A DNA stretch of 64,000 bases, taken from positions 186,001 through 250,000 of the forward strand of contig JANDJI010000004.1 of the NCBI GenBank assembly GCA_024331125.1, written 5' to 3'. Positions 28,910 through 30,780 of this stretch are shown piece by piece. The number at the start of each line of letters is the position of its first letter. Within the stretch, counting starts at the first letter, position 1. The translations under genes were made by a program, and so were the position numbers. Below the pieces are notes generated by a model, which was not told the DNA's origin, made no database searches, and was given only the letters and a program-made list of their open reading frames with translations. This DNA is from Nitrospira sp. GTDB lineage: Bacteria > Nitrospirota > Nitrospiria > Nitrospirales > Nitrospiraceae.

Positions 28910-28938
28910 TTGACATACTCACCGGCTCACGATATACC
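28910..28938 (+). promoter_or_regulatory. Near-consensus promoter of the MNIO peptide cassette
   Basis: TTGACA (28910-28915), a 17-base spacer and TATACC (28933-28938) lie 73 bases before the precursor ATG. The -35 is perfect and the -10 is four of six. This gives the cassette a transcription unit separate from gnd-zwf. Confidence 0.6.
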
Positions 28939-29010
28939 TGCCTCCGCCATGCGGCGTTTCACGCGCCGTTCATTCACAATCCCCTAACCAAACGAAAGGA
29001 GTTGCACACC

Positions 29011-29259
29011 ATGACCAATCGAAAAGGGACGGCCACGTTTCACCTGAGCAAGACAGGCGCTTCCGGCCGCCCGGCGGTCGAAGTCGCCCTCGTGGGAGGC
29101 GGCACATTGGCCGACGTTTCCACCGCGCTCGCCAAGAACATCACGCGCAACGCTGAAATTCTCAAGAAAGTCGGCCTCAAGGCCTGCCCCGCCTGCATTT
29201 CCGGCTTCGACATCTGGATCCGCCATCGCTTCGACGACGTCATTCAGGTGAAGCTGTAA
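29011..29259 (+). CDS. Probable MNIO-modified peptide precursor with CPAC motif
   Basis: An 82-residue protein. The first 57 residues look like a structured leader (RPAVEVALVGGGTLADVSTA, LAKNITRNAEILKKVG) and the end reads LKACPACISGFDIWIRHRFD and then DVIQVKL. The only two cysteines form a CPAC pair at residues 59-62, followed by aromatic and His residues, an attractive substrate for the DUF692 enzyme encoded 12 bp downstream. No signal peptide, unlike bufferins. AAGGAG lies nine bases before the ATG. A non-RiPP role as a small zinc- or copper-binding protein is possible. Confidence 0.65.
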   Translation: MTNRKGTATFHLSKTGASGRPAVEVALVGGGTLADVSTALAKNITRNAEILKKVGLKACPACISGFDIWIRHRFDDVIQVKL

Positions 29260-29271
29260 GGGAATCGAGTC

Positions 29272-30153
29272 GTGACGCGGGTCACCGAACCCGGTGTCGG
29301 GCTGCTTTTCAACCCCGCGCTTGCGGATTTCGTTCGCGCGGATCTCGAGCAACTGAACCATCTGGCCGTCATTCCGGATCGAGCATGGATCGATCACGGC
29401 CCCGGACACCGGCGGCGTTTTGAAGAGCTGCCGGTTCCGCTTGCGCCGGTTGAACAGGCCGCGCATCGGTTGCCGATCGCATTGCACGCGATCGGGCTCT
29501 CGATTCTCAGCGCCGACTTCTTCGATACCGAGTATCTCGATCAATTGGCCCGCTGGTGCGAGCGCCTGGACTGCGCATGGGTGAGCGAACACCTGTCGTT
29601 TACGCGCGTCGGTTCCGGCCACGGCACGCACGCCGCGTTGGCTTTGGCGATGCCATACGATGCCGAGGTGCTCGACCTCCTGATTCCGCGCGTCCGCTCG
29701 GCCCGGCGGACGGTGGGCGTCCCGTTCCTGCTTGAAAATCCGGTCGCATACGTCGATTACGGCGACGAGGAAATGAGCGAGGCGGAGTTTTTCAACGCGC
29801 TCATGGCCGAGACCGGTTGCGGCATGTTGCTGGATCTCCACAATCTATATGCGAACGCCCGCAACCGTCGTTGCGACGCGCCCGAATACCTTCGACGACT
29901 CGACCTTTCCGGCGTCATTGAGATTCACATCGCCGGCGGTGACGAGATGATGGGGCTCCATACCGATTCACACGCCGGACCGGTGCACGCGGGGGTTTGG
30001 CCGCTGCTCGAATGGGTGCTCCCGCGAGCTCCCAATTTGCGAGCCGTGACGTTCGAGTTTCATGAAGGCAGTTGGCCTCTGTTGCACCGACAGGGAGTAC
30101 TGACTCAGTTGAACATCGCCCGCCGCGCGATCGAGCAGGTTGGCGCTTCCTGA
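29272..30153 (+). CDS. MNIO-family (DUF692) multinuclear non-heme iron enzyme
   Basis: A 293-residue DUF692 protein with a TIM-barrel fold. Family blocks are HAIGLSILSADFFDTEYLDQ, CAWVSEHLSFTRVGSG, VPFLLENPVAYVDYGD, GCGMLLDLHNLYANARNRRC, VIEIHIAGGDEMMGLHTDSH, HAGVWPLLEWVL and TFEFHEGSW; these hold the His, Glu, Asp and Asn ligands of the iron cluster. Known members oxidise cysteine or nearby residues of RiPP precursors (oxazolone-thioamide, thiooxazole, carbon excision). It begins at GTG 29272 between the CPAC peptide and a partner protein, the standard MNIO order. Confidence 0.85.
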   Translation: MTRVTEPGVGLLFNPALADFVRADLEQLNHLAVIPDRAWIDHGPGHRRRFEELPVPLAPVEQAAHRLPIALHAIGLSILSADFFDTEYLDQLARWCERLDCAWVSEHLSFTRVGSGHGTHAALALAMPYDAEVLDLLIPRVRSARRTVGVPFLLENPVAYVDYGDEEMSEAEFFNALMAETGCGMLLDLHNLYANARNRRCDAPEYLRRLDLSGVIEIHIAGGDEMMGLHTDSHAGPVHAGVWPLLEWVLPRAPNLRAVTFEFHEGSWPLLHRQGVLTQLNIARRAIEQVGAS

Positions 30154-30168
30154 TCCAAGGACTCACCC

Positions 30169-30780
30169 GTGTCGCTTGCTGAATTTCAACGCGCCCTCAC
30201 ACACATGACGCTCGACGTACGCTTGGCCCGCCGGATCAAGCGCGATGGGGAGTCCGCACTGGCGCCCTACGGGCTGACCGATCGCGAGCGCGCGAGGCTG
30301 ATGCGCATTTCCCGACAGCCGGGAATGGCGCTCAACTGCACGCTGGCCCGAGCCAATCGCTTCACATCCATCTGCGACGCTTTCCCCATGACCTGCGTCG
30401 TCCTGGAACCCTGGTTGCGCGACTTGCTCGACGACTTATGGTCGACCGAGGCTCCCGCGGATTATCAACTCCGCGGCGAAATAGACCTTTTTGCACGTTG
30501 CGTCGAGCGGGAGTGGCTGCCTCGGAAGAACATCGAATACTTGCGGGAGATCTTCGACTACGAGCGGGCCTGCCACGAGCTGGTGACCGCGTCAAGAGGC
30601 TCGTCCCTCGAGGCAATGGCGGGAACGGTGCGACGGATTCATTTTTCTCACGATCCGTCGCACATCCTGCCTCCGCTCCAAGACGCGACGGCTCCTCCGC
30701 CTGGATTGCCGATCACCCCGCACATCGTGGAAGTGGAAATTCGGGACGGTGCCTTGGAGACCCGCTGGCATCGGACGTGA
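30169..30780 (+). CDS. MNIO partner protein (putative precursor-recognition subunit)
   Basis: A 203-residue soluble protein, start GTG 30169 with AAGGA seven bases upstream. The N-terminal 60 residues (LAEFQRALTHMTLDVRLARR, SALAPYGLTDRERARLMRIS) resemble the small helical domain seen in LigA-like and other RiPP-associated proteins. The rest is helical with Cys residues (NCTLARANRFTSICDAF, FPMTCVV) and ends in a beta segment (HIVEVEIRDGALETRW). MNIO enzymes normally need a partner that binds the precursor leader; position and spacing make this the candidate. The sequence alone does not prove the role. Confidence 0.6.
   Translation: MSLAEFQRALTHMTLDVRLARRIKRDGESALAPYGLTDRERARLMRISRQPGMALNCTLARANRFTSICDAFPMTCVVLEPWLRDLLDDLWSTEAPADYQLRGEIDLFARCVEREWLPRKNIEYLREIFDYERACHELVTASRGSSLEAMAGTVRRIHFSHDPSHILPPLQDATAPPPGLPITPHIVEVEIRDGALETRWHRT

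Follow-up and report, generated by a model that had tools for sequence, protein, structure and literature searches.

The multinuclear iron oxidases (MNIOs, DUF692) are enzymes that carry out unusual oxidations of cysteine. The 64 kb window analysed here, by which we mean the whole stretch of DNA, carries the gene of one such enzyme between those of a small protein with a CPAC pair and of a further protein, which raises the question of whether the three genes form a modification system and, if so, of which kind. The reading that we favour, with a probability of roughly 0.55, is that a small intracellular protein is made by the cassette and modified post-translationally by means of the MNIO and a PME-type 2 partner.

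A preliminary description of the locus had proposed three tight genes behind their own TTGACA-N17-TATACC promoter, an arrangement that was borne out. Three co-directional genes were confirmed at 29011-30780, encoding the 82-aa CPAC protein (hereafter the precursor), the DUF692/MNIO enzyme and the 203-aa partner, with spacings of 12 nt between precursor and MNIO and 15 nt between MNIO and partner. The promoter-like site ends 72 nt 5' of the precursor ATG and is the single match to TTGACA-N16-18-TATA when both strands of the window are scanned; a stricter promoter scan omits it because the final T is missing from its -10. The features are the following:

28910-28938, + strand: promoter-like site TTGACA-N17-TATACC, read directly, with a putative function
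28995-29001, + strand: Shine-Dalgarno AAAGGAG of the precursor, read directly
29011-29259, + strand: precursor, putative MNIO substrate protein of 82 aa (ATG start; homologues upstream of MNIO genes)
29185-29205, + strand: CPACISG, presumed modification core of the precursor (alignment of 40 homologues)
29272-30153, + strand: MNIO (DUF692) multinuclear iron oxidase of 293 aa (GTG start; PF05114; nine TglH iron ligands)
30169-30780, + strand: PME-type 2 partner protein of 203 aa (GTG start; AlphaFold2 model, TglI fold match, homologues, fusion)

Homologous cassettes and the linkage of precursor and enzyme

An initial genome scan with the precursor gave no matches, because its 8-residue patterns were over-specific. 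Distant kin came from a genome scan with the MNIO patterns WVSEHLS[FW] and DLHN[LV]Y[AT]N, and the matches were confirmed by tblastn against the real sequence. These patterns were chosen from a constructed alignment (A3), whose second row is the window MNIO with its non-motif residues substituted and which served for pattern choice only. Relatives of the MNIO with 51-59% identity were found in Archangium, Solibacter/Bryobacterales, other Acidobacteriota, a Burkholderiales MAG and Bradyrhizobium, and others with 47-52% identity in Marilutibacter (record name Lysobacter penaei), Luteimonas, Hydrogenophaga and further genomes. Homologues of the precursor lie immediately 5' of related MNIOs (phmmer E 8e-17 to 2e-8, ten loci) and those of the partner 3' of them (E 2e-52 to 1e-9), so that the arrangement in the window is not due to chance. 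A search for precursor homologues near DUF692 genes elsewhere had been put forward as a refutation test of the preliminary description, and its claim survived this computational half of the test. Moreover, divergent precursor subtypes have the motif in common and were linked by profile comparison (hhalign) with probabilities of 76-95, shuffled-column controls staying at 3.5 or less; the direct comparison of window-type with CxC-type precursors reached a probability of only 19.

The linkage can also be assessed without any selection on the enzyme, using the precursor profile alone as query. In 250 genomes of the order around the Bryobacterales locus, this profile gave 13 matches, and all seven that were new have an MNIO immediately 3'; four further matches in the genus around another locus (L058) likewise have one (4/4), which brings the new loci with an MNIO directly downstream to 11 of 11. 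In the 27 genomes that supplied most of the profile sequences, every strong precursor match is a cassette copy, two of them in a single genome (G303) being adjacent copies at one locus (L074), and the remaining four are weak, with E values of 0.01-0.1. No convincing orphan copy of the precursor was found in the genomes searched; the second match of the profile in the window's own genome has an E of 0.33. Clustering of the flanking genes of 31 loci revealed no further conserved gene, and no conserved exporter, protease or regulator among them, the leftover clusters being antisense frames, precursor frames and close-relative synteny.

Scans of viral contigs found nothing of the cassette, and plasmid tblastn with the partner found none. 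With the MNIO as query, those plasmid matches that underwent inspection and annotation proved to be of the bufferin type, and the matches to the precursor were judged to be chance.

A clade of MNIOs in at least eight phyla

A quick IQ-TREE tree of 107 MNIOs was labelled with the presence of the motif upstream. A CxxCxSG-type motif precedes 42 of the 45 rows on one side of the tree and none of the 62 on the other, although the scan with the two MNIO patterns favours enzymes that contain these patterns, so that neither the size of the clade nor the 62 'other' rows should be taken as a random sample. The split of the motif-bearing clade has an SH-aLRT of only 82 and smaller nested groups reach 94-100; because long branches are present, the argument is based on how the label is concentrated and not on each fork. 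The clade covers Acidobacteriota, Myxococcota, Pseudomonadota, Planctomycetota, Cyanobacteriota, Actinomycetota, Bacteroidota and the window's own phylum; the cassette family is patchy yet widespread across at least eight bacterial phyla.

Within the window's genus, the precursor occurs in two of 79 genomes and was not found in the 77 others. The cassette is intact once, in the window, and decayed once, at the same site of a related species (G253; L010, 1434-2018, minus strand). There, the first core Cys is replaced by Arg, the frame is broken near the end of the precursor, and the MNIO is lost from about residue 80 into the end of the partner. Both flanks could be reached in 18 relatives, and in these zwf adjoins a GDSL-hydrolase gene with no cassette between; this gap measures ~0.36 kb in the two relatives whose zwf is closest (98.5-99% identity) versus 2.5 kb in the window. 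Within the genus, the cassette is thus a dispensable accessory element between conserved genes. Its history could be one gain with repeated losses or several gains, of which a single gain is simpler because the insertion site is identical. Horizontal transfer obtained no support from composition, the G+C and GC3 of the cassette not differing from those of neighbouring genes.

The partner protein

The partner had been thought to carry a LigA-like helical N-terminus, a claim that found no support, since it has no Pfam match at E <= 1 and its whole model resembles TglI. The absence of Pfam matches means that it has no DUF2063, and no NCBIfam family matched either. Its AlphaFold2 model (pLDDT 90) finds as best PDB fold match by Foldseek the TglI of TglHI (8hi7_A; probability 1.00, TM 0.56, E 4.5e-3), while NGO1945 (3dee) is absent from the matches. 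Partners of PME-type 2 have been defined by the lack of a DUF2063 signature together with a TglI/NGO1945-like fold (PMC12452194), a definition that this TglI-like fold fits. In one subclade, the MNIOs are ~500 aa long and end in a ~200-aa C-terminal extension, which hhalign matches to the profile of the partner with a probability of 99.2 (E 1.9e-19); judged by this match, they are natural enzyme-partner fusions. Activity is already on record for an artificial HvfBC fusion (PMC13419390).

Apart from the cassette, the window's genome encodes on the minus strand a divergent MNIO-like protein of ~500 aa (L173:3220-4773, G000:C1; 44.9 bits to PF05114), which is conserved in many relatives (L023-L033) and has a helical-looking C-terminal extension, weakly partner-like (hhalign probability 53). 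A small Cys precursor is not evident upstream of it, and in the window's genome its gene adjoins dus-, CBS-domain- and LOG-family-like genes (names by inspection).

The enzyme and its possible chemistry

The MNIO matches PF05114 with 188.6 bits (E 1.6e-55, cut-off 25), and together with the homologous cassettes in other genomes this gives good support to the claimed assembly of MNIO, partner and CxxC precursor, a probable RiPP cassette. The iron ligands of TglH are H71, H107, E151, D184, N187, H216, D229, H231 and E258 (PMC10880893), which by alignment correspond to H72, H107, E155, D188, N191, H219, D232, H234 and E262 of the window enzyme; all nine are kept in 36 of 36 aligned enzymes of the clade.

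The catalytic residues offer a different picture, their positions being assigned by sequence alignment and not by structure. For FonB, Asp249 has been proposed to act as the base when 5-thiooxazole is formed, and the D249A variant yields unmodified peptide (PMC12668002). The aligned column, which follows the last iron-ligand Glu, holds Asp in six of six bufferin-type rows and in none of the 36 clade enzymes; the window enzyme has His-Glu there (FEFHE) and other subclades have different residues, so that the chemistry may vary inside the clade. TglH also lacks the corresponding residues of MbnB and needs instead Asn73, which is essential for C-excision (PMC10880893). This Asn has no counterpart in the window enzyme, where HAIG stands against HSNYG in a pairwise alignment of that enzyme only. 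With a clade lacking the thiooxazole Asp and a window enzyme lacking Asn73, the chemistry cannot be assumed, and the chemistries first named, thiooxazole and oxazolone-thioamide, are not supported, since the clade lacks the Asp on which FonB depends for making thiooxazole.

These data also bear on whether the product could be a non-secreted, bufferin-like copper chelator, with 5-thiooxazole or oxazolone-thioamide at both cysteines as made by BufB, HvfB or MbnB. None of the NCBIfam equivalogs reached its cut-off with the MNIO, and the best match, BufB, stays at 166.7 bits, far under its cut-off of 310. The gene order precursor-MNIO-partner is the same and Cys-rich bufferins do bind copper (PMC12452194), but the absence of a signal peptide, a partner that is not DUF2063 and the non-Asp residues at the FonB Asp249 position across the clade make this explanation an unlikely one.

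The precursor

The precursor contains exactly two cysteines, C59 and C62, with CPAC at residues 59-62 of 82, so that both are internal and not C-terminal. By inspection, its N-terminus (MTNRKGTATFHLSKTGASGRP) has no hydrophobic stretch and hence no signal peptide; both traits, the missing signal peptide and the mere two cysteines, had been read correctly from the window at the outset. No Pfam or NCBIfam family matched it. Across 40 aligned precursors, C59, C62, S64 and G65 are invariant and the core is Cys-x(1-2)-Cys-x-Ser-Gly, again without a signal peptide; one group has CxC in place of CxxC, and the Pro of CPAC is variable (CLGC, CNAC, CRPC, CGGC and CxC occur). The two cysteines are nevertheless not absolutely required, because one further precursor (L137) has HPNC-Y-SG, with His for the first Cys, and another copy (L083) has lost both, the MNIO frame alongside looking intact in each case. 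The C-terminus, initially taken as fixed, is partly conserved as SG[LF]D...I..RF.. and is not fixed throughout. As for the long folded-looking leader, it is predicted with low confidence only: the AlphaFold model has a pLDDT of 65 and no confident structure, a fold search with it gave no credible match, and PDB sequence searches with the precursor and partner profiles gave no matches.

Some precursors are duplicated. In three loci of the order of the Bryobacterales locus (L133, L134 and L135), one ORF upstream of the MNIO carries two tandem CxxCxSG-type domains, whereas at L074:3148-3722 the CPACCSGFDIRF precursor occurs in two adjacent copies followed by a single MNIO of ~505 aa.

The 82-aa protein might also be an accessory subunit, or a redox or metal chaperone, of an MNIO whose true substrate lies elsewhere. 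Its location just 5' of the MNIO, as in known MNIO precursors, points the other way, and the tandem two-domain forms and the two-gene duplication are more typical of substrates; nearby there is, in addition, no other conserved gene. We consider such a subunit rather improbable, even if the predicted fold has structured elements along most of the protein, no leader-cleavage site or protease gene is obvious and the tight 1:1 linkage would also fit. A chryseobasin-like conversion of the CPAC pair into a macrocycle plus hydantoin, as performed by ChrH and DybH on CPACGMG, is very doubtful: the CPAC pair with its two invariant cysteines and a Gly further downstream are shared and the short CPACGMG motif alone suffices for DybH (PMC12636315), but the window MNIO scores only 46.7 bits with the ChrH model (cut-off 600), the Pro varies among the precursors, the window motif is internal and without GMG, and DybH needs no partner protein.

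Proposed mechanism

For a modified small intracellular protein, the reading preferred here, the following course can be envisaged. The PME-type 2 partner would bind the precursor by its N-terminal strands or helix and dock it on the MNIO, whose Fe(II)/Fe(III) centre would bind one cysteine of the C-x-x-C-x-S-G turn through its thiolate and oxidise it with O2. The second Cys, that of C-x-S-G, is the best candidate for the reacting residue, because it is kept in every motif-bearing member and is the more constant of the pair; the other may aid binding or trap an oxidised intermediate. The product would be a heterocycle or a Cys-Cys cross-link and not the standard 5-thiooxazole, and it most likely remains cytoplasmic, as a whole small protein, because the cassette has no signal peptide, exporter or protease. 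Its role could plausibly be that of a soft-metal (copper) or thiol-stress sink, the metal role being suggested by analogy with bufferins only. More tentatively, the clade may install a new cysteine-based permanent modification on a folded cytoplasmic mini-protein instead of making a secreted peptide natural product.

Comparison with known systems

TglHI of the 3-thiaglutamate (pearlin) pathway shares with the cassette the partner fold, the LDLHN motif and the nine iron ligands. However, TglH targets a C-terminal Cys and needs Asn73, whereas the Cys pair of the window is internal and its enzyme lacks that Asn. The bufferins and captophorins (BufABC, FonABC, HvfABC) have the gene order and the MNIO superfamily in common with the cassette, and yet they possess Sec signal peptides, DUF2063 partners and the catalytic Asp, all of them missing here; with a score below the BufB cut-off, the distinction from bufferins drawn in the preliminary description stands. 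Chryseobasin and DybA (ChrH, DybH) share the CPAC pair as putative target, but their CPACGMG is C-terminal, their precursor is secreted or lipidated, and their enzymes form a distant MNIO subfamily without a TglI-like partner; instead of the C-terminal CPxCxMG of this type, the window has an internal CPACISGFD.

Searching the literature for the motif string gave no match. Nonetheless, a 2025 in-silico survey by Antoine et al. had already described CxxC precursors that lack a signal peptide (adjamnio-7) as well as partners of PME-type 2 (PMC12452194), so that the proposal of an undescribed system is supported only in part. Adjamnio-7, the MNIO cluster #7 with Novilysobacter and the member WP_078758616 (PMC12452194), resembles the window cassette by description, as a small signal-peptide-less CxxC protein encoded beside an MNIO gene. 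In the present data, the Lysobacter-type precursors (CRPCLSGLDRF) are distant homologues of the window type (hhalign probability 90), and the Lysobacter-type members of adjamnio-7, compared by description, are probably a subgroup of the CxxCxSG family. The main text of the survey does not contain the SG invariants, the CxC, tandem and MNIO-partner-fusion forms or the Acidobacteriota-like branch (PMC12452194).

Altogether, this is a real, conserved MNIO cassette from a clade previously touched in silico only. What is new is how broadly the clade is distributed and how strictly it is linked to its precursor, together with the CxxCxSG core, the variants with fusions or tandem domains and the lack of catalytic signatures known from other MNIOs. 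Because it spans at least eight phyla, is strictly paired with its precursor and misses the Asp of the best-studied cysteine chemistry, the clade is a good place to seek a new reaction, and its branches with separate partners and with natural fusions provide ready-made constructs.
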